A DNA stretch of 64,000 nt from positions 63,793,043 to 63,857,042 of the forward strand of contig OZ024875.1 of the NCBI GenBank assembly GCA_964017185.1, read 5' to 3'. How positions within the stretch are numbered: position 1 is the first letter of the stretch; each line of letters opens with the position of its first letter. The DNA comes from Rugalucina vietnamica. Taxonomy: Eukaryota; Mollusca; Bivalvia; Lucinida; Lucinidae. Below the pieces are notes generated by a model. The model was not told the DNA's origin. It searched no databases and worked only from the letters and a program-made list of their open reading frames with translations. The translations under genes and the position numbers were made by a program. Positions 2,313 to 63,910 of the stretch are shown here, one piece after another.

Positions 2313-2721
2313 TTATCTTTTCGTGACGACTATCCCGCTGAGACAGGTGCCACAGGCAGTACAAACCGGCACAACGCAGCAGTTGATAAGGGTTCCGAAC
2401 AGTCTCTGCCAGCAGCCAACCATGATTGAGAAGTCACGCATGCAGGGGGTTAAGCACCATACGTGGTTGAACGCCGTCTCGGCGAAGTGGCATCCCCAGT
2501 AGAGAGCGATGCAGATTCCGCAGAGGGTGGTGAGAATCTTGTAACAGAGGTTCTTGCCGCACTCGAAGCACATATAACTGGTCCTCCACACGCAGTCGAA
2601 AGCACGAACCCCCTCTGGCTCGCCAATGACCTCTTCAAATACGACCTAAAATGGATGAAAGGATGAAATAAGGTTGCAGCGGAATTTTTACAATTTCCTA
2701 ACGAAGACTTTCACTCCATAT

Positions 2722-2776
<55 letters not shown>

Positions 2777-3421
2777 GGTAAAAGGGGTAAAAGTTTAGTA
2801 ACGACTAGGAATCCGTTACGGAATTATTAAATAAGTCGTCCTAAAATCAAAATTTAAAAGTGAACAGCGTCTGTATGGATTATGTATTAACAATTTTTAG
2901 TCATAAGATCCTTCCGTTTGGAACACTCAGTTTCGATTTTTTTCAGCAGTTTTAGATTATTCATCTCAGCTTCTTTCATTTACTTGTGAGCCTGTGCATG
3001 AGAAAACCAACAATTTGGGTTTCAGACCAGGTCCGACACAAACCAGGCTGTACAAGCACAGAAAAGAGCTAGAAGCTTGACATTCCGGATTTAAGAAGAA
3101 GAGAGATTGTACTATCCGAGTAGAGAAAACAAAGGCGCTGATCAGCTTCGCGGTTACCGCGAAGCTGATCTGCGTCTTTGTTTTCGCCTATGCAGATTGT
3201 TGGTTTTCCCATGCACAGGCTCTAGTATCTTTTTAATGTAGCGTACGCGTCATGCGTTTGTTTGTTTGTTGTTGTTGTTTTATTCTGCGTTGCAATTTCC
3301 TTTTTTCTTCCTTTTGGTGATAATTTTCAAGTATAAAACAAGTTACCTTCACGTGAGAATTCAATTCATTTGGATCCCTATTTTCCATATCGGGCCCATC
3401 GTCGTGGGTTTGTCCGCCCAT
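2313..3421 (-). CDS. CAV: Caveolin-family protein, gene 1
   Basis: Caveolins are membrane-hairpin scaffold proteins that oligomerise and bind cholesterol at the plasma membrane. Exon 1 is 3347..3421 (25 codons, ending ENRDPNELNSHVK), then donor GTAACT, intron 2646..3346, acceptor TTTTAG, and exon 2 at 2313..2645 (110 codons plus TAA). The predicted protein is 135 residues. Exon 2 opens with FEEVIGEPEG, the caveolin signature, followed by the scaffolding-like stretch DCVWRTSYMCFECGKNLCYK, a hydrophobic hairpin, and a C-terminal CC-x2-P-x-C-x2-CG cluster. I count 15 cysteines in exon 2; human CAV1 has three in all. The ATG at 3421 is preceded by an in-frame TAA. The intron carries a GA microsatellite and a TGAGCC-type MITE. 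Its closest relative in the window is divergently oriented gene 2. Confidence 0.92.
2724..2778. repeat. (GA)n microsatellite followed by poly-G
   Basis: About 21 GA units followed by a run of 13 G, inside the intron of caveolin gene 1. Confidence 0.97.
2987..3223 (+). mobile_element. TGAGCC-type MITE with internal palindrome, copy 1
   Basis: It begins TGAGCCTGTGCATGAGAAAA and ends with the inverted form (GGTTTTCCCATGCACAGGCTC). Near the right end is a long palindrome centred on CTTCGCGGTTACCGCGAAG and flanked by AACAAAGGCGC-type arms. It is non-coding and about 237 bp. It sits in the intron of caveolin gene 1. Confidence 0.85.
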
Positions 3422-3436
3422 ATTTGAAATTCCCAA

Positions 3437-4487: not shown

Positions 4488-4812
4488 GTTTGAGGTTTGG
4501 CGCCTGTGAAACTGGTTTAAGCCCCCGGTAATTTCATATTACTGGTCGTTCCAATGCTATAGTTCTATTGTAGTTCTAATTGGTTTACATTTTGGTGTTG
4601 TATGTTTAAGCTGTTTGTGCCTTATTTTGGATTTCACATATTTAGCCATGTTCGGGTAACTGAGTGACCGCCTTTTGGGATATAGCTGCTCACTCGACTT
4701 ACGATATACTTTCTTTGTATAAGTTTAGTTTTCCCACCTCGGTGTTTGGTGTGGGAATTTCTTTCTAATTGCGCCATTTCCTTATCATTGCTTACCTTTA
4801 CCTTTTTAGGCG
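4488..4812 (-). repeat. R1 dispersed repeat (Penelope-associated), copy 1
   Basis: Reverse-strand copy of the commonest repeat in the window. It is recognised by GTAACTGAGTGACCGCC, GCTGCTCACTCG, CCCACCTCGG and CATTGCTTACC in order. Other copies of this family abut reverse transcriptase fragments. Confidence 0.8.
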
Positions 4813-5613: not shown

Positions 5614-6694
5614 ATGCAACAAACCATGGACAAAGAACACCCAGACATGGACAACAGAGATGTCAATGATTTAAACTCACATCTACGGGTAAGGGTAAAC
5701 TTTTTATTTGAAAGTGTTGAATTTAAATTACTGAAATGTGCCATGTAATTTATCTAATGTTTATCAAGGGAGGGAGGGAATAAAGAGGATATAACCGGCA
5801 GCGTATAAATGGTTTACCAGATGCGAATAAGGAACCTAAATATCGTAGTAAGTGGATTCAAATACATGTGTTGTTGCATAATTCTATTGCAAACTTTTGC
5901 TATGCGTAAAGCCTCATGATCTTAAAGTCATCGAATCGACAACTCAGTTTTCAACACACACACACACACGAACATGGTAGCAATTGCATGTCTTTGATTT
6001 CATTGTGCATTGGCTTGATCGGTTTGTTGCTTTACGGTCTCGTCAACACTCGGGACGTTGTCTCCATTGCCTGTATCCAGCGTTGAGGTGTCATGACATG
6101 CGAAATGTACATGTAAACAATTAAAGTTTATATGTATTAATGATTTTACCAAATAACACCAGACCTCCTATGCAGTTAACATGTAATCAGGTGGTCGATC
6201 AGTAAAGTAAAAGCTTTGCTTGGAGACATGAGTGGAATACTATTATCCATATGATACAGTTATAACCTGTTTTTCTTATTTCAGCTCTATTTTTATATTG
6301 ATTATGCCAGTTCCTAGCCATTTTGTTTTTTCGTTCACCCTATCCTGACTGTCCATTTTAGGTGACCTTTGAGGACGTCCTTGGAGAGCCAGAAGGTGTC
6401 CGCTCTATCAAATGTATCTGGAGAAACGGTTACGCCTGTTTTGAGTGCGGCAAGAGTCTTTGCTACAAGATTCTCACCAGTCTGTGCGGGCTCTGCATCT
6501 CTCTCTACTGGGGCTGTGACTTCGCCGTCACCTCCTTCAACCACGTGTGGTGCTACACGCCCTGTATGCGTGATTTCTCTATCTGTGTGGGTTGTTACCA
6601 GAGGGGCTTTGGGACCGTCGTCAACTGCTGTGTGTCACCGATCTTCGAGGCATGTGGGATGTTGTTCAGTAAAATAACTATTACGAAGAAGTGA
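5614..6694 (+). CDS. CAV: Caveolin-family protein, gene 2
   Basis: Exon 1 is 5614..5688 (25 codons; contains DMDNRDVNDLNSHLR), then donor GTAAGG, intron 5689..6361, acceptor TTTTAG, and exon 2 at 6362..6694 (110 codons plus TGA), giving 135 residues. A second in-frame ATG at 5626 has the stronger context ACCATGG and may be the true start, which would give 131 residues. Exon 2 opens TFEDVLGEPEGVRS, followed by a scaffolding-like segment KCIWRNGYACFECGKSLCYK, the hydrophobic hairpin WGCDFAVTSFNHVWCYTPC, and a tail with CC-x3-PIFEACG. The FEACG end is close to canonical caveolins (FEAVG in CAV1). There are 14 cysteines in exon 2. The usual NRDP reads NRDV here. It pairs head-to-head with gene 1 and tail-to-tail with gene 3. 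A MITE sits immediately upstream. Confidence 0.93.
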
Positions 6695-8055: not shown

Positions 8056-9718
8056 TCAGTCCGTCGACTTATGTATCTTTATACCACTGAAAAGTTTTCC
8101 GAATGCCTCAAAACATGGCGCAATGAACGATTTGGCACAGAGAGAAAATACTTTTGAAATCGGAATAATCTGAATGCTAAAGCTCTTCAAAGCTGGCGTG
8201 TATACCCAAATCTGGGCAAATCCCAGACAGGCGAAGTGGACGCCCCAGCACAATGCGCATGGCACTGCGCATACTGCTGACAGAAAGCGGTAACACCACA
8301 GTTTCGTATCTGTAAAAACCCGGAAGCTGGCACCCCAGATAGTTCCGAAACTGTATGTACCCTCGGGCTCAGCAAATATTTCTTCAAAGTCGACCTGAAA
8401 CCAAACAAAGGAACCGTTACGTCAAAAACGCTTATAAGTCGATCTTTCTTGGTACAACCAAACTTGCTTAAGATGTTTAGAACAAAGGTTATCAAAACTC
8501 AAAAGCAGCAGTACAGCAATGAAAAACAGGTTAACTCATTTAAGCCTGGCGTCCCTTTTATGGTACATAGGCAAACAGCATAGCCCCAGATGTGACGCCC
8601 ATCTGGGGCTATCCTGTTTGCACAGAAAAATTTCATCGAAAAATGAGATTAAAAAAAAATAAAAAAAATAAAAACCACTCTTAACACCCCTTAAAATGAA
8701 AGTGGACTCATCCAATTGATAATGATGGGAGAATCCATTTGTCAAATATAGGTTAACAGCATTAGCAAGTCTTACAGCCTGTAATTCTTGATCTTGATAA
8801 TTAATTTTGATCTGAGACACAGAGGCATCTATGTAAAGATACTTATCAATGCTCATGCTTTGGCTAGTTCTAGTATCAGGGAAAACAACAAGAATCAGAC
8901 AAGAAGATTATTCTGTATCAATATAGCAAAAATATATATATATCATGCTAAAGATGTTGACTTTTCCGTTTTCAATTGGCACTTCACATTTTTACTGAAT
9001 AAAAGGGAAAAATAAACACCAACAAACCAACCAGCCAACCAAAACAAACCGTGAAATAAACAAAAAAAAGCAATGTTATTTCACAGAAGTATATTCTGTA
9101 GCGTTAGCGGCACTTCATTGTAGTGTATTTTGCATATGTCTGATGAAAATTCTATTTTCAAAAAACGTCATAGAGTCTGTTGCCAAAAACATTTTTTTCT
9201 TAAATTTGCATGCATTGAATGTGTTCCTTTTTTGAATTAATTATAAAGTACATAGATTAATGGTGAAAACAAATTTTATCATGTAAAGAAATAAAATTAC
9301 GTTTTACCTTAACGTCATCATTTATTCCATCTGGGTCACGTTCCGTTTCCGTCATTTTTGACGCCGTCTTTTTCTCCTGTGCGCGCACTTGCACTCGAAC
9401 TCTATCCGTCCTCTTAGGTGACTTCTCTGACGTTAGACTTCCCTGTGAATAAAACGTCGGGTCATCCAATGACGTCGTTTTAAAACTTAACGCTGTTCCT
9501 CGAGGTGGGCGGATCGGTAACGTTTCCACTTTGTCTGATTCCTGATTTGCGTTAATTGACTCCGGTTGCTGATCTATCGGGCGTTTGTCCGTCACCTCAC
9601 GTTCTTCAAACGATGACGTTGATGTTGAAGATTTTCGACTCTGTTGGCGTTTTTCGTCGTCGAGAGGAATTTCAACAGATTCTGGCTCTGCAAGTTTTAC
9701 TTCTGTAGCAGTGGACAT
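8056..9718 (-). CDS. CAV: Canonical-type caveolin with long N-terminal exon, gene 3
   Basis: Exon 1 is 9308..9718 (137 codons, ending TERDPDGINDDVK), then donor GTAAAA, intron 8395..9307, acceptor TTTCAG, and exon 2 at 8056..8394 (112 codons plus stop). The predicted protein is 249 residues; human CAV1 is 178 and CAV3 is 151. Exon 2 reads as a standard caveolin: signature FEEIFAEPEGTYSF, scaffolding segment GTIWGASFRVFTDTKLWCYR, intramembrane hairpin around ALCWGVHFACLGFAQIWVY, then CFEAFGKLFSGIKI, matching CAV1 CDPLFEAVGKIFSNVRI. It has only 7 cysteines in exon 2. The N-terminal extension (residues 1 to about 120) is hydrophilic and rich in Ser, Glu, Lys and Arg, with a RKSSTSTSSFEERE stretch, and is probably disordered. 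An in-frame TAA precedes the ATG. The intron contains a TTAA-flanked MITE. This is probably the copy nearest the ancestral gene. Confidence 0.94.
8535..8752 (+). mobile_element. TTAA-flanked MITE with TAGCCCCAGATG palindrome, copy 2
   Basis: A 218-bp element with perfect TTAA on both sides (8531..8534 and 8753..8756). It starts CTCATTTAAGCCTGG and ends AATATAGG, with the internal palindrome TAGCCCCAGATG / CATCTGGGGCTA. It lies in the intron of caveolin gene 3. A TTAA target is typical of piggyBac and Kolobok transposons; the parent element is unknown. Confidence 0.88.
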
Positions 9719-12450: not shown

Positions 12451-12544
12451 ATAGTGGAGATACAGAACTTTAGTTTGATGAAACAGATGCCCCAGCGGAG
12501 TTTACGTGCATTAATGAAATGAGAAGCCGATATTTCGGTACATT

Positions 12545-12780
12545 TAAGCCGCCTCATGGGAAAACCAACAATCTGCATAGGCGAAAACAAAGACGCAGAT
12601 CAGCTTCGCGGTAACCGCGAAGCTGATCAGCGCCTTTGTTTTCGCTACACGGATAGTACAATTCCTTTACTTTCTAAATCCAAAATTTCCAGCCTCTAAC
12701 CATCTTCTGTGACTGTACAGGCTGGTTTGTGTCGGACCTGTTCGGAAACCAAATTGTTGGTTTTCCCACGAGGCGGCTCA
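12545..12780 (+). mobile_element. TGAGCC-type MITE, copy 2
   Basis: A full-length copy with ends TAAGCCGCCTCATGGGAAAA and GGTTTTCCCACGAGGCGGCTCA-type, flanked by TT on both sides. The palindrome centred on CGCGGTAACCGCG lies near the left end, the opposite orientation to copy 1. Confidence 0.87.
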
Positions 12781-12835
12781 TTTATGTGAAGAAAAGTCAT
12801 TTCATTTGTGAGCCTAGAACAAACTTTCTGAAATA

Positions 12836-15585: not shown

Positions 15586-16485
15586 ATGGAAGTTGATCTG
15601 GTCAACAGAGATCCTAACGGACTTAACCCACATCTTCAGGTAAGCTATTTTTGCTTCTTTTAACAGTTTTGGCATTTTTGTTTTTAGTTGCATACCAAAT
15701 TATTTTTACAAAGTTCTGTTTTGCAATTTTGTTCATCAGGTTCAAAGCATATTAACAATTTTAGGGCAAATAAATTTTTATATAAATATCTTTCAGAATT
15801 TGTGGAATTTGTCAGCAATCAAAATGCAAACCAAATGCTTATCATCGTTCGGTTTCATAGCTTCAAGTTGGTTTATCAGTACCAAAGCATTCAGGCTAGC
15901 AATGAATACTTTGGAAAGCTAGTAAAATATATAAGACCAATAAAAGTAAGCACACAAATAATAAATTTTTATCAACAAGCAGAGAAATGAAATCCCAAAT
16001 GTAGTGTCGTGTAAAAACGTAAAAACAAAGCAGATTGATAAACCGTCACATAACTCCTTACACAGAATATTGCCAGTTACTTGGGTGTTATAAAAAGAGT
16101 ATCGGACTTGGAACTAAACTTTGACTCAATTATTAATTTCCCTTTCTCTGTTTTTCAGTGCACATTCGAAGATGTCTTAGCTGAGCCCGAGGGTACCCAC
16201 AGTATCGACTGCATCTGGAAATGCGCACACTTCTGCTTCAACTTCTGGAAAAATATCTGCTACAAAATCGCCACACTCTTCTATGGTCCATGCATCGCCG
16301 CTGAATGGGGTTGTGAATTCGCCTACGTTTCATTCTATCATATTTGGTTCTTCACTCCCTGCTTCAAGTACCTCGAGCTCAACTGTGGGTGCATCAAGAA
16401 ACTATGGAACCAGTGTGTATCTTGTTGTTTGGAGCCTATCTGCATGAACTGTGGACTGTGCCTTCATGCATTTAAAAAGAACTGA
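15586..16485 (+). CDS. CAV: Caveolin-family protein, gene 4
   Basis: Exon 1 is 15586..15639 (18 codons, MEVDLVNRDPNGLNPHLQ), then donor GTAAGC, intron 15640..16158, acceptor TTTCAG, and exon 2 at 16159..16485 (108 codons plus TGA), giving 126 residues. Exon 2 opens CTFEDVLAEPEGTHSIDC, very near human FEDVIAEPEGTHSF. The scaffolding-like stretch is CIWKCAHFCFNFWKNICYK and the hairpin lies around CIAAEWGCEFAYVSFYHIWFF. It ends with CCLEPICMNCG and a basic FKKN tail. It has 16 cysteines in exon 2, the most in the cluster. A TATA box lies at 15482 and an AATAAA at 16913. It belongs with genes 5, 6 and 7, and is the first of three forward tandem copies. Confidence 0.94.
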
Positions 16486-17403: not shown

Positions 17404-17485
17404 GTTGTCGTGGTCGAGTGGTTAAGGAGATGGTCTAGAAATCAATTGGGATATTCCCGCGCAGGTTCGAATCCTGCCGACAACG
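17404..17485 (+). pseudogene. tRNA-Ser(AGA) copy, probably decayed
   Basis: An 82-nt copy of the tRNA at 19483 with acceptor stem GTTGTCG / CGACAAC intact, T-arm GCAGGTTCGAATCCTGC intact and anticodon AGA. The anticodon stem ATGGT / TCAAT has two mismatches, and the D arm differs as well. This argues for a pseudogene or a low-scoring gene. Confidence 0.75.
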
Positions 17486-21658: not shown

Positions 21659-23852
21659 ATGTCCGACGGACCAGATTTGACCAACAGAGATCCAAATTCA
21701 ATTAATCCGCATTTACAAGTAAGTTGTACTAATGATCGAAGAAAATGACAAAAAATACTTAATAGGAAATAGTCCGATTCGTTTTTGTTTCTTTCATTAT
21801 TTTTTAAAGTTTGCATAGAAAAATTACAATCGGGGACAAACCTTAATTAAGATTAAGTCAAATATCAGTTAAACCAACCAACATTGGATGACTATATTAA
21901 AGAATCAAACAAGTTTACAATGTGCATTTAAAATACATGGATTCGTGCTGCCACAATGAACGACAAGTTGGCTTCTTTAAAAAGAAACCAATGAAAAGGT
22001 CAGCAGCCGTTTGTTATAAGAGATTGTAATAATTCATTTTAGTTGGTTGGGGCCGGAGCTTCTTGTCTGTTGCTTGGCCCACCGGGGTCCAACTGGTGTT
22101 TTTCTTTTGCTCCGGAGTTAGTAAGTTATTCGGCGCCCAGGGATCTCCATCGTCGGGTGATTGATGATTCATTGACTAGTTAGAGATTCACCACGAAGAC
22201 CGAAGAACTAACTAAATGTTATGAACCACTGCAGAAGCTGAAGGTGAGGTTAGGCGCCTGTAAAACCGGTTTAAGCCCGCCAGTAACTTTGTGTTACTGA
22301 TCGCTCCAAGGCGATACTTCTGTGGTGGTTCTTTTTGTTTTATGTCTTGGTGTTTAAAAAATTTTTGTGCTGTTGGCGCCTTATGTGTGTTTTCATAGTT
22401 TTAGTTAAGTTAAGGTAACTGAGTGGCCACCTATTGGGAAAATAGCTGCTCATTCGGCTTACGATATGTTTCATGGTATAAGTGCCTGATTGTTAGTTTG
22501 TTTTTTTCCCACCTCGGTTTTTGGAGTGGGAATCTTTTTCTGATTGCGCCTTTTCCTGATCTTTGCCTACTTGTATCCCTTTGCTCTAGATTTCAGTGTT
22601 GTTGATTCTCTGGTTCGTCATTAATTTAGATTCTCTTTCATTTCAGTTTCGTTTCCTATACATGAATGTCGTTTCTTGTAATGAACATTGACCAGTGTGT
22701 GTATCTGTTGCTCAAGGCAATGACCAAAATTTTTGATGTTATGGAATGAAAGCCAATACTAAAGGGAACACGATTACAATCAATATGTCGATTTGTAGAA
22801 AACCAATTTGCAGTGAAGTCAATTTGTGACAGAGTTCTGAGTTTTGACCTGCAGCCACACTACCAGAAATAGACCTATAGTGCGATGTGATGGACTTAAA
22901 GTCAGCCGTATAGAGTTTCTATAGTTTCTGTACCCCTTATCAGGGTATATACGATGTAAACCTAGATGCGCTATGATAAGCAGTCACCACGATCGAGACT
23001 GCTAGCTAGATATTTACTGCTATTTGACGGGGAGTGTCAACATTTGATAAATTAAATTGATTGCGGTGAACTGTCTAGTCACTATAAACGGGTTCACTAG
23101 TTTTTAGTAAGCGCTTTATGTGACAAAACGCGTAATTGAGGGAGAGCAGTCGATCATGGGTACAATTTTCTTCATATTCAAAGTAAACACTGTGGAAAAG
23201 GTCCTGAGGGACCTTTTCCAATGAGAAAAGAAGAGTAGAATGATATAGTCATCTTGTTCCTCGTGTCTGTTGAAACATGGTGTCTCAGTTAGGATTTTAA
23301 TTTAATCATACCATTTCCTGTGCCTTCTATTCTTAGTATGCTACATGCATATGTTTCATTACCTTTCATACTTTGCATTTGTACATTCAGTGACATCATG
23401 GATACATATAATTTCTCTCATTTCATACAAGATCTTGTTTTAATCAGCAATAAGATCTGCCCCATCTCTTCCGAATGTTTTACTTGCTCCCACAGGATCT
23501 TAGTTTTTCAATTTCTTTATTTCAGTGTATGTTCGAAGATGTCTTAGCGGAGCCTGAGGGGACACACAGTATCGACTGCGTCTGGAAACTTTCCTATACC
23601 TGCTTCAATCTCTGGAAGAGTCTCTGCTACAAGATCGCCACACTACTCTGTGGGATATTCATTGCCACGGGATGGGGGTGTGAGTTCGCCATGGTTTCCT
23701 TTCAACACATATGGTATTTCACGCCGTGCTTCAAGCTTTTGGACATCAACTGTGGGTGCATGAAGAAATTGTGGACCCAGTGTGTCAATTGCTACCTAGA
23801 ACCCATCTGCACAGCTTGTGGACTATTCTTCCATGCCTTTAAGAAGGGTTAA
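21659..23852 (+). CDS. CAV: Caveolin-family protein, gene 5
   Basis: Exon 1 is 21659..21718 (20 codons, MSDGPDLTNRDPNSINPHLQ), then donor GTAAGT, intron 21719..23525, acceptor TTTCAG, and exon 2 at 23526..23852 (108 codons plus TAA), giving 128 residues. The signature is FEDVLAEPEGTHSIDC, the scaffolding-like stretch CVWKLSYTCFNLWKSLCYK, and the hairpin region runs from IATLLCGIFIATGWGC to FQHIWYFTPC. The tail is YLEPICTACGLFFHAFKKG. It has 13 cysteines in exon 2. The last residue is Gly where genes 4, 6 and 7 have Asn. The intron carries a reverse-strand R1 repeat at 22042..22583. A TATA box lies at 21549 and an AATAAA at 24091. Confidence 0.94.
22042..22583 (-). repeat. R1 dispersed repeat, copy 5
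   Basis: Long reverse-strand copy inside the gene 5 intron, from GGTTGGGGCCGGAGC through GGATCTCCATCGTCGGG and CCGGTTTAAGCCC to CCTGATCTTTGCCTACTTG. Confidence 0.82.
23193..23220. repeat. Short perfect hairpin
   Basis: Arms TGGAAAAGGTCC / GGACCTTTTCCA with loop TGAG, inside the gene 5 intron. Role unknown. Confidence 0.6.
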
Positions 23853-29124: not shown

Positions 29125-30033
29125 ATGTCTCAAAAAATGGAGGTTGACTTAGTGAATAGAGATCCTAATCAGATTAATAACCATCTAGGGGTAAGTATTA
29201 GAAAATGCTTCTCAAAAATTAAATTGTTAAGATCTGAAAAGATTTTTTAACATAAAGAGTGAGAAAGTGTTCACAAATGACCTCATCTCTCCAAAACATA
29301 CAATAACGAAAATGACTCTTTGATTTAGTTAAATGGCAAATTTTATTCTATAAGTATCACTTTATATCTCTTAAAAGACATTTATCCAGATCATTGTTTA
29401 TTTATTTATTTTGCCTCCAATATACAATCACGGGCATCTGAAATTCCGTTTTAACTTATCTAAAGCTAGAAAAACGCTTGAATTCTATAAACTATTGGCA
29501 GTGAACTCCAAATGTTTTTGGGAGTGAACTCTCAATGTTTCTCACTTTCCCTAAAACATTTATGTCGCTTTTTAAGTGTTTTGATGGGCTAAAATGGAAC
29601 TTCAGATGCCCGTGATACAATATACGTAAAAACTACCAACATATACGTATAATAAAAATATAAAATATCTTTATCATTAAAACTATTCTTTGAAACTACT
29701 TTGCAGTGCACTTTCGAAGACGTACTTGGGGAACCTGAAGGCACCCACAGCATCGATTGCGTCTGGAAGCTCTCAAATACCTGCTTCAATCTGTGGAAAG
29801 GTCTTTGCTATAAGATCGCCACACTGCTCTGCGGAATCTGCATCGCGGCTGAATGGGGATGTGACTTCGCCATGATTTCCTTCCAGCATATATGGTTCTT
29901 TACGCCATGTTTCAAAGTCTTGGAAATCAATTGCGGTTGCGCGAAAAGGATCTGGAACCAATGTGTCACGTGCTGCTTGGAGCCTATTTGCACGAATATT
30001 GGTCTCTGTTTCCATATGTTCAAGAAGAACTGA
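29125..30033 (+). CDS. CAV: Caveolin-family protein, gene 6
   Basis: Exon 1 is 29125..29190 (22 codons, contains KMEVDLVNRDPNQINNHLG), then donor GTAAGT, intron 29191..29706, acceptor TTGCAG, and exon 2 at 29707..30033 (108 codons plus TGA), giving 130 residues. The signature is CTFEDVLGEPEGTHSIDC, the scaffolding-like stretch CVWKLSNTCFNLWKGLCYK, and the hairpin lies around CIAAEWGCDFAMISFQHIWFF. The tail is CCLEPICTNIGLCFHMFKKN. It has 15 cysteines in exon 2; the CG of the usual CxxCG motif reads IG here. Third of the forward tandem group, with a TATA box at 29024 and an AATAAA at 30329. A second in-frame ATG at codon 5 gives a start like that of gene 4 (MEVDLVNRDP). Confidence 0.94.
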
Positions 30034-36129: not shown

Positions 36130-36826
36130 TTAATTTTTCTTGAATGCATTGAAAAATAGTCCACACGCCATACATATCGGTTCCAAACAACACCCAACAC
36201 ATTGTCCCCAGAGCTTTTTGATGCATCCACAGTTGATATCGAGAAGCTTAAAGCAAGGGGTCCAGTACCAAATGTGCTGAAATGACACCATTGCGAACGT
36301 ACAACCCCATTCTGACGCTAGGCAGATACCACAGAGTATGGTGGCGATCTTGTAGCAGAGTCCCTTCCAGAGGTTGAAACATTTGTAGCTGAGTCGCCAG
36401 ACACAGTCGATACTGTGGGTACCCTCGGGCTCCGCTAATACATCTTCAAACTGACACTGAAAGGCAAAACAATCGGATTGTAAGAAGAGTCTGGTAATAC
36501 TTTAATGGCAAATAAAAGGAACAATATGCAATATATGCAACAAAAATTGTTAATTCAAGGAGCAAACTTAGAAGACATTAAGGCATCGTTTTACCGAAAA
36601 TTCTTAGTTCTGAGACGCTCAATAATTCATGTAGCGCGCGTTAACTAAAACGTGTATACATAAAGCAATGTAACAGATGCCTTGCTACAGGCAACGGGGT
36701 CAAAAAAGCAAAGATATAGACAACTAAAATGCATTGTAACAAATAATATCAAATCCTTAGACCAACCTGAAGATGAGGGTTTATTGAATTTGGATCCCTG
36801 TTGATAAGATCTACTTCTGTCGACAT
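36130..36826 (-). CDS. CAV: Caveolin-family protein, gene 7
   Basis: Exon 1 is 36767..36826 (20 codons, MSTEVDLINRDPNSINPHLQ), then the unusual donor GTTGGT, intron 36457..36766 (310 bp, the shortest in the cluster), acceptor TTTCAG, and exon 2 at 36130..36456 (108 codons plus TAA), giving 128 residues. I read exon 2 directly from the reverse strand: CQFEDVLAEPEGTHSIDC, scaffolding-like CVWRLSYKCFNLWKGLCYK, hairpin around CLASEWGCTFAMVSFQHIW, tail CCLEPICMACGLFFNAFKKN. It has 15 cysteines in exon 2. By sequence it belongs with genes 4, 5 and 6 but is inverted relative to them. A TATA-like TATTTAAA lies at 36920..36927. Confidence 0.93.
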
Positions 36827-46049: not shown

Positions 46050-47709
46050 TCACTTCTGGAATGCCTTGAACACCAGTCCACAAGACTCACAGCACGGGTC
46101 CATACAACACTGCACACACTGGCCCCAGATCCTCTTCACAATACTACAGTTGATCTCCAACATTTTGAGTACAGGTGTTATATACCAGATGTGCCAGAAC
46201 GCGATATAGGCGAACTCGCAGCCCCACTCTGCGGCAATACATATACCGTAGAAAAGGGTGGCGAGCTTGTAGCAGAGGTTCTTCCAGAAGTTGAAGCAGA
46301 AGTAGGAGAGTTTCCAGACACATTCGATACTGTGGATACCACTGGGTTCGGCTAGAACATCTTCGAAGGCAACCTGCAATAGTAATGATATTTGAGCCTG
46401 TGCGTGAGAAAACCAACAATTTGGGTTTCTGACCAGGTCTGACACAAACCGGGCTGTACAAGCACAGAAGATGGCTAGAGGCTTGAAATTTTGGCTATAA
46501 GTAGAAGAGGAATTGTACTATCCGAGTGGCGAAAACAAAGGCGCTGATCAGCTTCGCAGTTACTGCGAAGCTGATCTGCGCCTTTGTTTTCGCATAGGCA
46601 AAAATCCGGTTTTCTCACGATGCGGCTCATTTGGTTTCACAGAGCTCGATTTAAGTTTAAGAAATAGATCAGCTCTAGCAGTGAATTGTTGAGTAATAAT
46701 TCACTGTTTGGAGGTCAGTTGTAAAGAAGATCAAATCACGAGCGCGTAGCGCGAGTGATTTATATTCTTACAACTGACCGACAAACAGTGAATTATTACT
46801 CAACAATTCACGCACTTGAGCTGATCTATTTCGATTCTAACACACAATAAACGGAATAAATGTTGCTGAAACCGTCGATATCGTTCACCTTTCCGCCATT
46901 GCATTGCAGATATCCCGCCAAATATTTGACTGTAATGCTGTTATTTACACACACTTATTACGTTTGTTGTGCGCTAAAACGACGTTTCACCGTCTAACGC
47001 TGCTTTGTGGGATAGCTGACGTCACAAATGCCGCAAAGTAACGTCACGCTTCTTCGCCCAGTGAAATTGTTGCACAATATAACACGTTTTTTACCATTGG
47101 CTATATAGGCGAGGTGTGTTAGAATAGTCGTCAAAAGCAATCAAATGGAAAATACGTTTGTACAAATTAAACTAGAACTTTTATTTTTCTTGAATAAATT
47201 AGACCAAGACGATGCCATTCGAAGTTTCGAACTTTTATTTTTCTTCATGGCAGCTATGTCATCCCGTGGTAGTTGTTTTTATGTACTTCAGTATCACAAG
47301 CCGTCCATTATGGCTAATGTTTTATTATTATTATTGCAATTTTTTCTGTCATAAGACCCATAAGACGAGACAAACCAAGATGGTTGTCTTCAATACTTAA
47401 ATTCAGTAGTCTTGCAGTAAAAGCAGGTACAGGAACTTGTTTATTAGTTTGTAGTACACGGCTGCAATAACATCTGAATAATTAATGGCGTTTTCTTTTG
47501 TTTCCAGTAACAAGCCTTTATTGGAATCTTGGCATGGCTTAATGACATACTTGTTTACAGGTCCAGTGTATTTGGTCACTGCATTACTATAAACGTTCTG
47601 TGTACTACATATACGCATATAACTGACGCACACACTGTTCAAAATATTCAAAAAGAATATAATGATGTATCACAATATAAAGTAACCTAAATTTGATCCC
47701 ATCTCAGTA

Positions 47710-50700: not shown

Positions 50701-50835
50701 CTCATGTCAATATTGATAAATCCTTAATAAACATGCACCCTACTTATTTCAGGAACTGTGTTAAAATACATTTATACTTACTGTTAAATGACAATTTATA
50801 TTGTTTGGATCCCTGTTTATTGTGTCTAAATCCAT
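46050..50835 (-). CDS. CAV: Caveolin-family protein, gene 8
   Basis: Exon 2 is 46050..46373 (107 codons plus TGA): VAFEDVLAEPSGIHSIEC, scaffolding-like CVWKLSYFCFNFWKNLCYK, hairpin around CIAAEWGCEFAYIAFWHIWYI, tail CCMDPCCESCGLVFKAFQK. The nearest first exon is 50782..50835 (18 codons, MDLDTINRDPNNINCHLT, donor GTAAGT), giving 125 residues and a 4.4-kb intron. A second candidate first exon lies at 53922..54002. The signature reads AEPSG where all others have AEPEG or GEPEG. It has 12 cysteines in exon 2. A MITE ends 19 bp before the 3' splice site and a foldback element follows, so the intron is heavily invaded. It groups with genes 9 and 10 (PCC-x2-CG tail). Confidence 0.88.
46393..46629 (+). 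mobile_element. TGAGCC-type MITE, copy 7
   Basis: Ends TGAGCCTGTGCGTGAGAAAA and CTCACGATGCGGCTCA, flanked by TT on both sides, central palindrome GCTTCGCAGTTACTGCGAAG. It lies in the gene 8 intron, 19 bp from the exon 2 acceptor. Confidence 0.88.
46671..47125 (+). mobile_element. Hairpin-plus-TIR foldback element, copy A
   Basis: The hairpin at 46671..46832 has arms starting GAAATAGATCAGCTC and containing GTGAATTGTTGAGTAATAAT, closed by GAGCGCGTAGCGCGAG. It is followed directly by a segment of 292 bp bounded by the 12-bp inverted repeat ATTCTAACACAC (46834..46845) and GTGTGTTAGAAT (47114..47125). Copy B at 57070..57523 is the same element in reverse. Both lie in caveolin introns. Confidence 0.85.
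47710..47748. repeat. Poly-T tract
   Basis: Uninterrupted run of about 39 T shortly before an R1 copy. Confidence 0.95.
47788..48365 (+). repeat. R1 dispersed repeat, copy 10
   Basis: Long forward copy from AAAAGGTACATCTAGGCAAT to TTGAACCCCAGTGGGCCAAG. A further 3' piece lies at 48535..48672 (ACCTCACCCTCAGCTTCTGC to AACCACCATGATGAATAAA). Both lie in the gene 8 intron. Confidence 0.8.
48688..49276. mobile_element. Inverted-repeat element ending in CTCAGGTGAGC
   Basis: Left end TTAACGCTCACCTGAG and right end CCTTCGGCTCAGGTGAGCTAA are inverted. It contains GACGGACGGACGACGGACGG and ATGGCGGCCACCTTGG. Non-coding, about 590 bp. Relatives of parts of it are at 35005..35150, 61308..61730 and 62565..62835. 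Confidence 0.7.
49478..49660 (+). repeat. R1 dispersed repeat, copy 11 (diverged)
   Basis: AAGTAAGCAATGATCAGGAA, then CCGAAGCGGGAGAAAA and AAGCTGAGTGGGCATC; more diverged than the other copies. Confidence 0.65.
49777..49998 (-). mobile_element. TTAA-flanked MITE with TAGCCCCAGATG palindrome, copy 3
   Basis: A 222-bp reverse-strand copy with perfect TTAA at 49773..49776 and 49999..50002. Palindrome arms TAGCCCCAGATGGGACGCCG and CGGCGTCACATCTGGGGCTA are intact. It lies in the gene 8 intron. Confidence 0.88.
50003..50781. other. Gene 8 intron next to exon 1, nothing recognised
   Basis: AT-rich, with no repeat family of this window and no exon-like sequence apart from the flanking exon 1. Confidence 0.35.
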
Positions 50836-51060
50836 GATGAACTCTCTGCTTTATTCTGAATTGTGTACAACGTTTACTATAACTTTTTCCTTATAGTTTC
50901 TATCAATTAGTCCAAAGGTAGCAGCGTCTTTGCGAATGTTTTTGTTTCTTTGTGGATGCTACGTGACAAACGGACTGTCCAAGTTCAGTTGCCCAGCTTC
51001 AGGATGCTCCATTGTTTACAGAAAGCTGTTGGTTACTACGCTACCATTGTCTCCGATAGT

Positions 51061-51296
51061 TGAGCCTGTGCGTGAGAAAACCAACACTTTTCGTTCCGGC
51101 CAGGTCCGACACAAACCGGGCAGCACAGTCAGCGAAGCGGACTAGAAGCTTGAAACTTTGGATATAAGTAGATGAGGAATTGTACTACCCGTGTAGCGAA
51201 AACAAAGGCGCAGATCAGCTTCGCAGTAACTGCGAAGCTGATCTGCGCCTTTGTTTTCGCATAGGCAATGATCCGGTTTTGTTATGACGGGACTCA
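51061..51296 (+). mobile_element. TGAGCC-type MITE, copy 8
   Basis: Ends TGAGCCTGTGCGTGAGAAAA and TTATGACGGGACTCA, flanked by GT on both sides. Central palindrome GCTTCGCAGTAACTGCGAAG. It lies about 225 bp upstream of gene 8 exon 1. Confidence 0.87.
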
Positions 51297-53921: not shown

Positions 53922-54002
53922 CGTTAAATGATCGTTTATATTATTAGGATCCCTGTTGACCATATCAAGCTCCCCACCCCCATCAAGGTGTTGCTGTGAC
54001 AT
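53922..54002 (-). other. CAV: Second caveolin-type first exon upstream of gene 8
   Basis: 27 codons, MSQQHLDGGGELDMVNRDPN followed by NINDHLT, then donor GTAAGT in phase 0. It is a full caveolin exon 1 with no exon 2 of its own before gene 8: I found no FEDVLAEP-type exon between 46374 and 53921. It could splice to gene 8 exon 2 (giving 134 residues) as an alternative first exon, or be the remnant of a copy that lost exon 2. A TTTAAAAG sequence on the reverse strand about 110 bp upstream could be a TATA-like box. Its NRDPNNINDHL is closest to gene 9 exon 1. Confidence 0.75.
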
Positions 54003-55236: not shown

Positions 55237-55735
55237 TTACGAAAACTTGTCCATGCAATATACAGAGAATTTTTTCAGCATTAAAAATTGAAAATTTCAT
55301 CGGAAAAATTTTGATAATTTTAATATTTTTGCTCAGACATTGATTGTGGGTTTAAGTTAGAGGCGGTTCTAACGAGTACCCACAATAAATGTGTTTTGGA
55401 GCAAAAATAAGAAAAATAGGTATACCCCTGCATGCCCCACTTTTACTATATGAGCCGCGTCATGAGAAAACCGGATTTTTGCCTATGCGAAAACAAAGGC
55501 GCAGATCAGCTTCGCAGTAACTGCGAAGCTGATCAGCGCCTTTGTTTTCGCTACACGGATAGTACATTTCCTCTTCTTCTTATATCCGAAATTTCAAGCT
55601 TCTATCTCTTTTCTGAGCTTGTACAGGCCGGTTTGTGTCGGACCTGGTCGGAAACCCCGAAGACCGGTTTTCTCGCGTCGCGGCTCATATAAAAGTGGGG
55701 CTTAAGGGGTATTCATTGGACATGTTTCCTGATGA
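55237..55735 (+). mobile_element. GTGGGTAC-palindrome element, copy 3, split by a MITE
   Basis: The left part is 55237..55450 and the right part 55688..55735. The left arm of the hairpin is eroded (GTGGGTTTAAGTTAGAGGCG), the right arm intact. The TGAGCC-type MITE at 55451..55687 is inserted within TACTATATAAAAG, duplicating TA. Confidence 0.82.
55451..55687 (+). mobile_element. TGAGCC-type MITE, copy 9
   Basis: A full-length 237-bp copy with ends TGAGCCGCGTCATGAGAAAA and CTCGCGTCGCGGCTCA, flanked by TA on both sides, palindrome GCTTCGCAGTAACTGCGAAG. Comparison with the uninterrupted copies at 12177 and 13596 shows its insertion point. Confidence 0.92.
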
Positions 55736-56332: not shown

Positions 56333-57792
56333 CTAATTCTTCTTAAAATTGTAGAACAGCGCACCACATGCCTCACAGCACGGTTCTATACAGCATACGG
56401 TACAGTTCTTGTAGATTTTCCTGCACAACATGCAGTTGATATCCAATACTCTGACCAGTGGCGTGACGAACCATACGTGGTAGAACGCTATGACGGCGAA
56501 CTCGTAGCCCCACTCGGCGGCGATACAGATACCGTACCACAGTGTGGCACACTTGTAGGTGCAACCGAAACAGAAGTTGAAGCAGAATGCGGACAGCCTC
56601 CAGACACAGCCGAAACTCCTGACGCCTTCTGGCTCTGCTAGGATGTCTTCAAATTGTACCTGGAATTATGGCAGACATTGATGAGTAAATGATAACATGG
56701 ACTGGAACTGCTAGTTACATGCATAAATGAGCCTCCGTATGAACAAACCGGGCTGTAGACTAGAAGCTTGAAATTTCGGATTCAAGAAGACGAATGATTG
56801 TGCTATCCGTGTAGCGAAAACAAAGGCGCGTATCAGCTGTGCAGTTACTGCACAGCTGATCTGCACCATTGTTTTCGCCTAGGCATATTAATGGTTTTCT
56901 TATTCTCAAATTTACCTAAATATGCTCAAGAAAGTGCAGCATGGTGCTTTTGCATGCTACTGGATGATCGCCCAGTTAAAAATAAAGGTCCTATATTGTA
57001 ATATTACAATAGTTTACAGAGTAAAGAATAATGAAGCAAACGGCGGCACTAAATCCAAATTTAACAAAGATTCTAACACACCTCGCCTATATAGCCAATG
57101 GTAAAAAAACGTGTTATATTGTGCAACAATTTCACTTGGCGAATAAGCGTGACGTTACTTTGCGGCATTTGTGACGTCAGCTATCCCACAAAGCAGCGTT
57201 AGACCGTGAAACGTCGTTTTAGCGCACAACAAACGTAATAACTGTGTGTAAATACCAGCATTACAGTCAAATATTTGGCGGGATATCTGCAATGCAATGG
57301 CGGAAAGCTGAACGATATCGACGGTTTCAGCAACATTTATTCCGTTTATTGTGTGTTAGAATCGAAATAGATCAGCTCAAGTGCGTGTCGGTCGGTCACG
57401 TGTCGGTCAGTTGTAAGAAGATAAATCACTCGCGCTACGCGCTCGTGATTTGATCTTCTTTACAACTGACCTCCAAACAGTGAATTATTACTCAACAATT
57501 CACTGCTAGAGCTGATCTATTTCTTAAATAATGCTAGTCTCTCTGAGAATGTATAGGACACATGGTAATTGCATTGACATATTCTTGTTAAGAACCGATA
57601 AATGTTCTATTTCAAGCATTGTGAAATATGCATCACGTGTGTTCTCATGCAAAATACACGCCACCGATGAAAAAAAATAATATAAAAAGAAGAAATGGAA
57701 AGAAAGCAGAAAAGTAATGTGAATACCTTCAAGTGGTCGTTAATGTTGTTTGGGTCCCGGTTCACCATATCTAGTTCCAGAACGTCAGTCAT
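56333..57792 (-). CDS. CAV: Caveolin-family protein, gene 9
   Basis: Exon 1 is 57727..57792 (22 codons, MTDVLELDMVNRDPNNINDH and LK), then donor GTATTC, intron 56660..57726, acceptor TTCCAG, and exon 2 at 56333..56659 (108 codons plus TAG), giving 130 residues. Exon 2 was read directly from the reverse strand: VQFEDILAEPEGVRSFGC, scaffolding-like CVWRLSAFCFNFCFGCTYK, hairpin around CIAAEWGYEFAVIAFYHVWFV, tail CCIEPCCEACGALFYNFKKN. It has 14 cysteines in exon 2. Two features set it apart: RSFGC resembles the HSFDG of vertebrate caveolins, and Tyr replaces the Cys in EWGC. The intron holds a truncated TGAGCC-type MITE and foldback copy B. A TATA-like box lies at 57911..57920. Confidence 0.92.
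56728..56902 (+). mobile_element. TGAGCC-type MITE, copy 10 (decayed)
   Basis: Starts TGAGCCTCCGTATGAACAAA, retains a palindrome CAGCTGTGCAGTTACTGCAC, and fades at GGTTTTCTTATTCTCA. It lies in the gene 9 intron, 68 bp from exon 2. Confidence 0.78.
57070..57523 (-). mobile_element. Hairpin-plus-TIR foldback element, copy B
   Basis: The TIR segment is 57070..57362 (ATTCTAACACAC to GTGTGTTAGAAT) and the hairpin 57364..57523. It is the reverse of copy A at 46671..47125, nearly the same length (454 against 455 bp) and of high visual identity. It lies in the gene 9 intron. Confidence 0.85.
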
Positions 57793-60515: not shown

Positions 60516-61307
60516 TCGTTTTGTTTTGATTTCTCAGTGACGTTGCCAGCTGTAGAATCTTATTCCGTTTGTTTTTGCATGATTAAGTCCTAAAGCGGGT
60601 ATACATATTGTTCATTTTTATTTTAAAAAAGTTCTGTGGCAATTGATATACCCAAATTCATGTATGATGTTAATTATATGTGAAAACGTTTATTTCGCTG
60701 TTGATGACGTTGCATAAATATACGCGACGTCAGTGCAACGTTTGGCATTAAAACGAAAAAGGCGGGAATATTGAGCGTTTTTTCTCTATATCTTCCATCG
60801 CAATCCGGTGACCCCCACTTTTTATTTGAACTTTTAAATGGTTACCACGTTTCCTATCTGATGATGTAATTCAATGAAAATCATATGCGTAGTTTAGGAG
60901 ATATCGCAAAAATACGTACTTTTTCCAGGTTTGAAAAGATGGCGGGAAAGTTAATTTTGCATGTTATGTCTTCAATTTAAGAGCAAATAGAATTAAAATG
61001 TAAGAAAATAACACTCATCATGTGTTTAAGTTGATTTTGCAGTAATAACATGTATATTAAAACACGTGTTAGCTACGAGTGCGGTTTTCTGAAATGCACG
61101 AGAAACATCCAAAAAGTTCTGATACTATGGAAACGAGGCCGGTGACTCCCCACGTTTATTTCGATTTTAGTTCAAAGATACAATTATCTTGAAGCATAGG
61201 AAGTTTCATGAAAATCATATGCAGGAATTAAATAGTAATGTTTCCCTTTAATGACACATCACAGAAAACTTAATTCACGGTTTATGACGTCACTGCGTAC
61301 ATTATAT
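60516..61307. other. Spacer, nothing recognised
   Basis: No long frame or repeat family of this window. Contains two loosely similar phrases around 60790..60900 and 61140..61240 (CCGGTGACTCCC / CCGGTGACCCCC, then ATGAAAATCATATG), so it may be an old local duplication. Confidence 0.4.
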
Positions 61308-62835
61308 ATTTTAGGTCACCTGAGCCGAAGGTTCACAAGGTGAGCTTATGCATATACTAGGACGGGAATCGAGTCGTTGGGCGTGCGTGCGTCTGGCATC
61401 TTAAACTTTAAACGTCTTCATTTTTCAGTGGATCTTCGTCATTTTTTAAGTAACAATGATAAATGAAACGAAACATTGTGTGCCCCCCTTGTATTTAACT
61501 GAATGGTAACCATTTTGGAAAGAGTTATTCAATCAGATGACCCGGATTGTTCTCGATTCTCGGTGAAATGTCGGTTGGGATATTTGGCTTCGCTTGTGCC
61601 GATTCTTTATTAGCCATTGCTTACTTTTAATATTTCACATGATATTGGGTTTTGTTAGTCAGACATATACAGAGGCGATCTTTGAAGAGTGTTGACGAAC
61701 AGATGACGGACGCCATTTTTTAAAAAGCGTTGTCTGTGCGTTCGTCCGTCCGTGCGTCCATTCACATTTCCAATTCAAAAATCTCAGAGATTGGTGGACA
61801 AATTGCAATCAAATTTAACATGATGCGTAAATGAGGTGGGGGATCGCCTGTAATGGATTTTGAAGCAGATCCGACGGGAACTCTGGTTTCCATGGCAACA
61901 GATAGCCCCCATAGGATTATAATGGAGGAAAATGTTGTACTAACTCTTGTGGCTTTATTTTTGTTAGGATCTTATTTATTTTCAAAAGTAACGCGGACAA
62001 CCATATCCCGAATGATAATTGGAAAAATGTTGTGGCAATACTAGCGCCTATTTTTACAGTGAATCTTTTTGTTTCTTGCAGGTAACAATGAAAACCACAG
62101 CATTAGGATTAGTTCGAAATCTAGTCAGAGCGAATCACTGACAGCGGAGTTACCTGCCCTTGAGCGTTTAAAAAAATCCCCATGGAATAAAAATGGAGAA
62201 AAATGTCGTGGCAACTTAATTGTCGTGGCAACTTACATTTTATATTACTGATCGTTCCAAGGCGATACTTCTGTTGTGGTTCTTAATGTTTTGTGTTTTG
62301 GAGTCGAATTTTTGTGCTGTTTGCGCCTTATGTACGTTTTCATATTTTAGTTCAGTTCTGGTAACTGAGTGGCCGCCTATTGGGGAATAGCTGCTCACTC
62401 AGCTCACTATATGTTTTCCTTGTATAAGTACCTAGGTGTCTTTTTAGTTTTTTCCCATCCCTCGGTTTATGGAGTGGGAATTTCTTTCTGATTGTACCAT
62501 TTCCTGATCATTGCCTACTTGTACCGTCTTTATTTTCAGTGGGTCTTCAAAATCCTTCTATGTAACGATCATTAGCGAAACGAAACCTTGTGTGCGCCCT
62601 TGTATGTTTATTTAACTGAATGGTAACCATTTTTGAAAGAGTTATTCAATCGGATAACCGATTGTTCTCGATTCTCGGTGAAATTTCGTTTTTTTCCCAT
62701 TTGACGGGACATTCAACGCTTCTTGTGCCCATTGCTTACTTTTTAATATTTCACATGATATTCGGTTTTGTTAGCCAGTCGTATACAGAGATCTTTGAAG
62801 AGTGTTGACGAACAGATGACGGACGCCAAAGCGAT
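61308..62835. repeat. Direct duplication of GAGCCGAAGG-type repeat around an R1 copy
   Basis: The block 61480..61730 (AACTGAATGGTAACCATTTT, TTGTTCTCGATTCTCGGTGA, GAAGAGTGTTGACGAACAGA) recurs at 62565..62835. The left block begins with TCACCTGAGCCGAAGG as in the element at 48688. Between them lies R1 copy 17 (62245..62535, reverse). A 63-codon frame at 61853..62044 is not called. Confidence 0.65.
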
Positions 62836-63586
62836 ATAAGCTCATGTTAGCTTCACATTGAGTATTTCTGACGCAAAATAGACTGTACAGTCACAAAACT
62901 TTACAGATGCTAGAATTTTTGTATTTGAGAAGAGAAAGCAAACGCAGTGGTACCCTATGAGCTTTTCCATTGTACTGATCACCTTCTAATTGACATGTTA
63001 GGTGACTAAAGGCATGAAACAATGGTGACTCCAAGTTGAATATGTCTATGTTGTGTCTAGTGCAATAAATATAATTAGAAGGTAAGATTTTAATGTTTTC
63101 TGGGAAAGTTCGCCATATGTTCGCCATCACTCTTCACAGTGTATATTAAAGTTAAGATTTTTTTGACTGATCAATAACAAAAATAGCTAAAGCTTTTAAT
63201 GATTTATTTTTAACATTTAAATATAACATGCAGATGCTCCATTTGTTTGAAGTAACAATCATCCTATCACTTAACATACAAATAAAAGCATATGGCAAAG
63301 AAAATATGATAAATACAATGAATTTTATCACAGAGAGCTTCTGAAATTGGCTGTCCATTTCGTTACACCAGTACAACTTGCACTGTTAATTTAATCCTTC
63401 GGTACATGTATTGCAGTACGTCATAGAGAGTCCATTCAAACCGTTATTAAAGATGTTCTGATTTCATTTTAGATTTCTTCGGCGAAATAAGTCCATGGCA
63501 GTGATGAAGAAATACGGAAAATCATCAGGCTGTCAAAACAACCAATCATTCCCGCTTTGATACAGATTCATAGCTTTAAGTCCGGT
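62836..63586. other. Spacer downstream of gene 10
   Basis: Should include the 3' untranslated region of gene 10. Only chance frames. Confidence 0.35.
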
Positions 63587-63910
63587 CTACTTTTTAAAGG
63601 CGTGGAATAATGCTCCGCACGCTTCACAGCATGGTTCCATACAGCAGCTCATGCATGTTCTGGTGATTCTCTTCCATACAGCACACTCGATCTCGCAGAC
63701 TCTCAGCATTGGGCTGATGAACCATACGTGGTAGAAGGCGATCTGTGCGAACTCACAACCCCACTCAGCTGCGATGCAGATACCGTAAAACAGTGAGAGC
63801 AATTTGTAGCAAAGGCTAAGCCATAGATTGAAGCAGCCATGGGCACATTTCCAGACAAAGTCGATACTGTGGGCGCCTTCGGGCTCAGCGAAAACATCTT
63901 CGAATGTGAC
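63587..63910 (-). CDS. CAV: Caveolin-family protein, gene 10 (exon 2 only; exon 1 outside the window)
   Basis: Exon 2 has 107 codons plus TAG, with acceptor TTCCAG at its upstream side. It reads VTFEDVFAEPEGAHSIDFVW, scaffolding-like KCAHGCFNLWLSLCYK, hairpin around CIAAEWGCEFAQIAFYHVWFI, tail CCMEPCCEACGALFHAFKK. It has 13 cysteines. No NRDP-type exon is present between 63911 and 64000, so the first exon lies beyond the right edge, as in the other genes where the intron is 310 bp or longer. It groups with genes 8 and 9 and is the fourth reverse-strand copy in a row. The cluster may therefore continue to the right. Confidence 0.9.
   Translation of the reverse strand, partial: VTFEDVFAEPEGAHSIDFVWKCAHGCFNLWLSLCYKLLSLFYGICIAAEWGCEFAQIAFYHVWFISPMLRVCEIECAVWKRITRTCMSCCMEPCCEACGALFHAFKK

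Follow-up and report, generated by a model that had tools for sequence, protein, structure and literature searches.

A sequence-only reading of the DNA analysed here had described caveolins as small families; this is true of vertebrates, which have three caveolins in all, but larger sets are recorded outside them. Caveolins bend cell membranes; of the vertebrate proteins, human CAV1 has a solved structure and needs Pro110 for the formation of caveolae. The larger sets comprise five sponge proteins annotated as caveolins (PMC12330381), eight caveolins in Aplysia, listed among antiviral genes (PMC9334734), and flatworm larval genes with the names cav1-8 and cav1-9 (PMC10396302). Studies of caveolins from outside the vertebrates cover no more than a handful, according to Han et al. 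2025 (PMC12330381). That work, in which caveolins were expressed in E. coli, reports disks for caveolins of animals and of choanoflagellates as well as multiple caveolin paralogs in Parahoxozoa, and its tree has one species representing each phylum or superphylum (PMC12330381). In the available main text of that paper, words for caveolin duplication or expansion, cysteine and palmitoyl are absent, 'duplicat' appearing there as a software option (PMC12330381). The genes described below belong to the same family as the caveolins of that study (PMC12330381), and in the literature searched, judged by titles and the starts of abstracts, we found no description of an array such as theirs.

An array of 18 caveolin genes

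Searching the 1.09-Gb genome of Rugalucina vietnamica with the Pfam profile PF01146 returned 21 caveolin matches, 18 of which lie within one 108-kb array, a concentration that excludes chance. The window, by which we mean the whole 64,000-nucleotide stretch analysed, had been read as holding an array of ten caveolin genes; the array is present, but its size is 18 genes (g1 to g18), with seven more to the left of the window and one to the right. All 18 match the profile, and each is predicted to have an open second exon and a first exon with a GT donor, an AG acceptor and a phase-0 junction. There are two candidate first exons for g15, hence 19 first exons for 18 genes. The exons in and just beyond the window are as follows.

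2313..2645, minus strand: g8 exon 2 (group A; signature to C terminus), PF01146 E 3.7e-31, AG acceptor, phase 0
3347..3421, minus strand: g8 exon 1 (short N terminus and ENRDPNELNSHVK), GT donor, in frame with exon 2
5614..5688, plus strand: g9 exon 1, splice-signal prediction
6362..6694, plus strand: g9 exon 2 (group A), PF01146 E 3.6e-29
8056..8394, minus strand: g10 exon 2 (CAV1/3-like; Pro at the CAV1 Pro110 position), PF01146 E 1.4e-35
9308..9718, minus strand: g10 exon 1, predicted (137 codons, long N terminus, ending in TERDPDGINDDVK)
15586..15639, plus strand: g11 exon 1, predicted; TATAWA at -104
16159..16485, plus strand: g11 exon 2 (group B), PF01146 E 9.8e-30
21659..21718, plus strand: g12 exon 1, predicted; TATAWA at -110
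23526..23852, plus strand: g12 exon 2 (group B), PF01146 E 7.4e-32
29125..29190, plus strand: g13 exon 1, predicted; TATAWA at -101
29707..30033, plus strand: g13 exon 2 (group B), PF01146 E 1.9e-32
36130..36456, minus strand: g14 exon 2 (group B, inverted), PF01146 E 1.9e-32
36767..36826, minus strand: g14 exon 1, predicted
46050..46373, minus strand: g15 exon 2 (group C), PF01146 E 1.4e-30
50782..50835, minus strand: g15 candidate first exon a (or an orphan first exon), GT donor, in frame
53922..54002, minus strand: g15 candidate first exon b (or an orphan first exon), GT donor, in frame
56333..56659, minus strand: g16 exon 2 (group C), PF01146 E 5.5e-26
57727..57792, minus strand: g16 exon 1, predicted; TATAWA at -127
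63587..63910, minus strand: g17 exon 2 (group C), PF01146 E 8.5e-28; TATAWA at -92 of g17
64588-64653, minus strand, 0.6 kb beyond the right window edge: g17 exon 1, predicted
67109-67174 and 68263-68586, plus strand, beyond the right window edge: g18 exons, predicted

Most of what had been claimed for the window was upheld. All ten second exons are open to their stop, and all ten match the caveolin profile (E 1.4e-35 to 5.5e-26; bit scores of 91.6-122.6 against a cut-off of 25) in alignments that span profile position 24-25 to 129-132 of 133. Nine genes, as had been stated, have their first exon inside the window, that of g17 lying outside. The signature FEDV(L/I/F)(A/G)EP, which had been ascribed to all ten, is exact in seven; g8 (FEEVIGEP) and g16 (FEDILAEP) are one position off and g10 (FEEIFAEP) is two off. 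Across the array, 17 of the 18 genes carry a FEDVIAEP-type signature with mostly conservative changes (YEDIFGEP in g4, FDDVLGEP in g7), and in g6 it is altered to HPDVLGEP; this copy may be drifting.

In g1, g5, g7 and g9 one TAG falls inside the profile match; as each acceptor ends in TAG directly 5' of the exon, these triplets are intronic. A caveolin on contig C2 reads through the same exon junction without an intron (NEHIK-CEFYDV), and this junction also occurs in database proteins of other bivalves, such as P0002 and P0009. Human CAV3 presumably has the same exon boundary, just before the signature. No second-exon relic or pseudogene was detected by tblastn (E<0.1) in 154 kb, nor between the two candidate first exons of g15. 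These 154 kb are unbroken and free of N within a 66-Mb contig, and the PF01146 search yielded no second array that would point to an assembly duplicate.

Protein features

The array genes share with vertebrate CAV1, CAV2 and CAV3 the Pfam Caveolin domain, a FEDV-type signature and the Pro132 position, and differ in that 18 genes are neighbours here, compared with three genes in vertebrates. The four window genes of ten that were tried against human CAV1 all matched it (g10, 2.3e-33; g8, 1.6e-22; g13, 3.2e-22; g17, 4.4e-18).

The residue at the CAV1 Pro110 position is not proline in any of 17 cysteine-rich genes (Cys in 15, Phe in two), g10 being the only array gene with proline there, and on these grounds the cysteine-rich copies may differ from CAV1 in behaviour. 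Among 56 aligned relatives this position is occupied by Cys in 45, Pro in seven, Phe in three and Leu in one, those with proline being six gastropods and a horseshoe crab. The aligned domain of the 17 contains 12-16 cysteines, versus three in CAV1; CAV1 cysteine positions are conserved in 11/17 (Cys133), 13/17 (Cys143) and 3/17 (Cys156) of them, and g10 has none of the three. The Pro132 position, the signature and the scaffolding-region pattern are retained in the cysteine-rich copies.

Groups, relatives and age of the array

The tree resolves the cysteine-rich genes into three groups, A (g1-9), B (g11-14) and C (g15-18), with g10 as a single CAV1/3-like gene. The sets numbered 1-2, 4-7 and 8-10 in the sequence-only reading fall into A, B and C, and the local duplication with inversions that it proposed is borne out. 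A single clade of all 17 cysteine-rich genes apart from those of other bivalves was rejected (p-AU 2e-42), as was one of B and C together (p-AU 0.006). A lineage-specific origin of A alone was not rejected (p-AU 0.068), and B forms a window-only clade (support 96/83), so that some of the array may have arisen recently; since the main groups are common to other bivalves, however, the array did not arise in a single recent burst.

The g10 gene branches with CAV1, CAV2 and CAV3 (99/94), with the order inside this group not settled, and, if the long CAV2 row is omitted, with CAV1 and CAV3 (100/97); none of the other 17 array genes branches with CAV1/CAV3. Its identity is 55/102 to CAV1, 53/107 to CAV3 and 34/110 to CAV2, the CAV2 and CAV3 sequences having been entered by hand.

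The direct relatives of the array genes are caveolin-1-like and caveolin-3-like proteins of bivalves and other molluscs (Dreissena, Ruditapes, Mactra, Mya, Sinanodonta and others), record names that need not imply kinship to CAV1 or CAV3. One from Dreissena is 74% identical to g13 across 95% of g13. Ruditapes has at least seven caveolin matches, each on an 802-kb contig, which we read as several per contig. Group sizes seem to differ between species, counts outside the array being lower bounds. These caveolin relatives point to a bivalve genome; the mitochondrial COX1, on contig C47, has one relative at 86%, the others among the best 120 matches being at 64-68% and spread over many phyla.

Selection and proposed function

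The array genes are clearly under purifying selection, as had been argued from their intact frames: dN is below dS in 153/153 pairs, and dN/dS, which stays far below 1, has a median of 0.19 and a maximum of 0.47 across the 75 pairs whose dS is finite and <3, all others being saturated or above this limit. We think it probable, judging from the sequences, that the array consists of working membrane-scaffold paralogs that form disks and are divided among cell types. By alignment to CAV1, exon 1 would supply a short N terminus and an end resembling the pin motif, and exon 2 the hook, scaffolding, spoke and C-terminal parts. In the inner leaflet of the membrane, each protein would most likely assemble into amphipathic disks of the caveolin type, and these disks would produce curved or lipid-ordered patches. 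Groups A, B, C and g10 probably split this job by cell type, for example larval ciliary-band cells and hemocytes. The conserved cysteines would, on the simplest reading, be extra sites of palmitoylation or membrane contact. Published work places caveolin in the prototroch of Dreissena (as cited in PMC12551290) and in annelid ciliated cells (as cited in PMC10380512); a flatworm ciliary cluster is marked by two caveolins (PMC10396302), and one oyster hemocyte cluster is marked by a caveolin (PMC12064177).

The array touches the question of caveolin function in animals that are believed to have no cavins; here the cavin profile PF15237 had no genome match (8/8 candidates scored), and the control genomes were also without one. 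With one CAV1/3-like member and 17 lacking proline at the Pro110 position, the 18 paralogs form a natural comparison set that could separate the features needed for disks, curvature and trafficking from those that vary with cell type, and the groups common to several bivalves bear on the early history of the caveolin family. A more elaborate scheme is doubtful: that a multi-lineage caveolin cluster is ancient in bivalves and linked, as in vertebrates, to F-actin-capping alpha, and that its cysteine-rich, Pro110-less paralogs co-assemble in mixtures that vary with the cell type and through which the cavin-free disks of that cell type are tuned in size, curvature and lipid content.

Other accounts of the array are less convincing. 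An array kept mainly for dosage, in which many copies of one function place more caveolin in the same cells and are homogenised by gene conversion, is unlikely. It would suit the head-to-head pairs g2/g3, g6/g7 and g17/g18, whose second exons are 95%, 82% and 93% identical while their introns and downstream flanks are near the shuffled level, and in which, with the three pairs pooled, 10/15 fourfold sites differ in exon 1 versus 26/106 in exon 2 (p 0.002), as exon-limited conversion would yield. Elsewhere, except in group B, identity to the closest paralog does not exceed 69%, and the groups stand apart on the tree. About equally unlikely is an immune-type birth-and-death family whose copies multiply and diverge under an arms race against pathogens exploiting membrane rich in caveolin, a view favoured by the oyster hemocyte marker (PMC12064177), the antiviral listing of the Aplysia genes (PMC9334734) and the seemingly unequal group sizes. 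Against it, no pair with finite dS<3 (0/75) has a dN/dS of 1 or more. Birth-and-death families, moreover, usually leave relics, and exon-2 relics are absent from the 154 kb.

The abundance of domain cysteines and the missing Pro110-position proline could also mean that these copies have left caveolin work for mainly metal or redox cysteine chemistry at membranes; we regard this as very unlikely, as they keep the signature, the scaffolding-region pattern, Pro132 and a profile match running from position 24-25 to 129-132 of 133. It is scarcely credible that the array is an assembly artefact or consists mostly of dead copies, given 18/18 open frames under purifying selection, introns and flanks that differ, and other bivalve records that likewise hold several caveolins per contig.

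Promoters and neighbouring genes

The ciliary part of the favoured division among cell types receives no support from the promoters, as the ciliary RFX X-box occurs in 0/19 upstream regions versus 3% of background windows. FOXJ sites were seen in 5/19 upstream regions versus 14% of background windows and GATA sites in 4/19 versus 10%, and SOX, MEF2, CArG and E-box motifs were at or below background. In 8/19 first exons TATAWA stands 88-127 bases upstream of the start codon, against 6% expected from background; counted in fixed 40-base bins, seven lie between -120 and -81, and none of the 13 other bins has more than three. The best 8-mer, ATTGTTTC, is present in 5/19 upstream regions versus 5/400 windows (p 2.4e-5, before correction for the 49 8-mers tested, from which it was picked for frequency).

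Close linkage of the array to Wnt and ST7 was rejected, both sitting at 4.4 Mb on the same contig, as was proximity of PET-domain genes, whose matches are on C7 (31.7 and 49.0 Mb) and C6 instead. The only Pfam match among ten further long open frames, in the window and its flanks, is a C2H2 zinc finger to the right of the array.

Extent and predicted structure of the array

The sequence-only reading had described a cluster of ten caveolin genes in the window, and all ten second exons match the Pfam Caveolin profile; the array itself, however, proved larger. A profile search of the whole genome (1.09 Gb in 47 contigs), in which all 33 first-look candidates were scored, returned 21 matches to PF01146, 18 of which lie between C7:63754020 and C7:63861628 on the 66-Mb contig (C7) whose bases 63793043-63857042 make up the window. 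The other three are at C2:68.15 Mb (C2 being a second contig), C7:35.07 Mb and C7:8.15 Mb. Numbered from left to right, the array genes are g1 to g18; the window contains g8 to g17, with the first exon of g17 falling outside it and the second inside. Searches of the open-licence literature turned up no account of a caveolin array.

In the 18 genes the first exon is predicted to end in an RDPNxxNxH-type motif (with variants in g4, g9 and g10) immediately followed by GT, and the second to begin, directly after an AG, two codons upstream of the FEDV-type signature; the predicted junction is in phase 0 in 18 of 18, and an inner TAG in four Pfam rows is the splice acceptor itself. Predicted proteins comprise 125-135 residues, and 249 in g10. 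A scan for the first-exon motif found 20 occurrences, of which one lacks a GT donor and is a chance hit; the other 19, all followed by the donor, compare with 18 second exons, g15 having two candidates. The first-exon end aligns with what we take to be residues 49-60 of CAV1. According to Han et al. (PMC12330381), these residues form the pin motif.

The predicted splice is supported by the caveolin on C2, which has no intron at the junction and whose frame is continuous across the exon 1/exon 2 boundary.

Dispersed caveolins
C2:68151894-68152559 (locus L018, 3895-4560), minus strand: intronless caveolin frame of 222 residues between two stops, extended by a C-terminal tail
C7:8.15 Mb (locus L020, about 4534-4690): partial caveolin match covering profile 42-103; resembles an inner exon, its ends being splice-like (read by eye)

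The C2 caveolin is perhaps an old processed copy of retro origin, although it shares only 46% identity with g13 over 96 residues and no poly-A tail was seen there. The C7:8.15 Mb match, which by eye carries proline at the place resembling position 110 of CAV1, looks like a dispersed caveolin gene with more introns than the array genes.

Selection and recent turnover

Frames are open in all 18 array genes, and the 154 kb examined yielded no exon-2 relics. Selection, previously claimed from stop-free second exons, is borne out by dN<dS in 153 of 153 pairs (Nei-Gojobori; infinite dS counted as larger), and dN/dS, which had been proposed as a check, is not near 1 for the 75 pairs whose dS is finite and <3 (median 0.19, maximum 0.47). 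This pattern speaks for purifying selection only. Upstream, 8 of the 19 first exons have TATAWA 88-127 bases from the start codon, the reference point used here, compared with a 6% background (binomial 8e-6, for an interval picked after looking and copies that are not independent); in fixed 40-base bins the peak holds 7 and each of the 13 others at most 3.

The closest pairs, g2/g3, g17/g18 and g6/g7, are each head-to-head neighbours, with exon 2 identities of 95%, 93% and 82%, respectively. Their introns and downstream flanks align at about the shuffled level (at the g17/g18 intron end the value is 0.54, the shuffled maximum being 0.52), and only g2/g3 align clearly upstream (67%). With the three pairs pooled, fourfold sites differ at 10 of 15 positions in exon 1 versus 26 of 106 in exon 2 (p 0.002). 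Such a pattern would be accounted for if inverted duplications were later subject to gene conversion limited to exons; alternatively, fast intron turnover combined with selection may have produced it.

History and genomic context

On a first tree of 79 rows, the array divides into groups A (g1-9), B (g11-14) and C (g15-18) and the CAV1/3-like g10, which groups with the human caveolins (support 99/94) with the internal order open; when the long CAV2 row was left out, g10, CAV1 and CAV3 grouped at 100/97. The same tree places Ruditapes as sister of B (96/88) and B among Dreissena, Mya, Mercenaria, Sinanodonta and Potamilus rows (92/88). On a 75-row tree, A forms a group of 16 rows with Ruditapes, Mactra, Mercenaria, Dreissena and Sinanodonta proteins (99/97), B is a clade of the four window genes only (96/83), and the smallest group containing g15-18 has 22 rows from many bivalves, including oysters, a scallop and a mussel (99/85). 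A single clade of the 17 cysteine-rich genes (A, B and C) was rejected (p-AU 2e-42). So was a B+C clade (p-AU 0.006), and an A-only clade was not (p-AU 0.068), these two hypotheses having been defined after seeing a tree. Many forks stay open because the alignment has only 128 columns.

Related clusters appear in other bivalves. Seven Ruditapes rows on an 802-kb contig include A, B-side and C-type proteins, with P0060 belonging to none of the three groups; on a 211-Mb contig, Dreissena rows cover A, the B side and C; and Sinanodonta tags 016417 (B side), 016424 (C), 016428 and 016435 (both A) span 19 numbers, tag 016425 lying inside this span and being absent from the tree. In these protein records we read equal contig size as the same contig and locus tags as gene order; given the equal contigs and close tags, caveolin clustering therefore probably predates the divergence of these bivalves. 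Counts in these bivalves are lower bounds, as the search depends on shared words and groups sequences at 90%. A public 223-residue protein of Tegillarca granosa (P0001) has two caveolin domains in tandem, either a fusion or a gene-model join.

The genome's only F-actin-capping alpha matches (PF01267; three matches in one place, from five scored candidates) are found 224 kb to the right of the array. CAPZA2, ST7 and WNT2 are located near vertebrate CAV1/CAV2, and WNT2 and ST7 are adjacent in vertebrates; here, 7 kb separate a Wnt gene from ST7 at C7:4.41-4.48 Mb, 59 Mb from the array. Han et al. (PMC12330381) assign caveolins to a single ancestral linkage group in every parahoxozoan observed except two. 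Together with the F-actin-capping alpha linkage, this fits, without proving, an array at the ancestral caveolin locus.

Possible roles of the array proteins

The four window genes tried matched human CAV1 (7sc0) by sequence and, much more weakly, a second caveolin entry (9dn0). Disk formation would be the default expectation for the array proteins, since the signature, the scaffolding-region pattern and Pro132 are retained. Unlike CAV1, however, 17 array genes lack proline at position 110 (Cys in 15, Phe in 2) and carry 12-16 cysteines in the domain, compared with three; all 17 have Cys at CAV1 positions 91 and 154. Among relatives, position 110 is Cys in 45 of 56 and Pro in 7, of which six are from gastropods and one is from a horseshoe crab.

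At the family level, published studies place caveolins in larval prototroch or ciliary cells (PMC10396302; also as cited in PMC12551290 and PMC10380512) and, for the oyster, in one hemocyte cluster (PMC12064177). Taking these placements with the sequence features, we lean towards division of labour among cell types as the reason for so many copies, ahead of a demand for dosage or an arms race, both of which we favour less.

Repeats and tRNAs

Repeats and tRNA genes in the window
2987-3222, 46393-46628, 51060-51295, 56678-56913: ~240-base repeat
12541-12781, 19680-19920, 55447-55687: ~240-base repeat, inverted
46809-47092 and 57104-57387: 284-base inverted repeat, 98%, arms in the long g15 intron and the g16 intron
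17404-17485 and 19483-19564: two tRNA-Ser(AGA) copies, 40.1 and 62.8 bits

The weaker tRNA copy may be repeat-derived. One copy of the ~240-base repeat stops 20 bases upstream of the g15 exon-2 acceptor, and related stretches were seen by eye in loci elsewhere in the genome.
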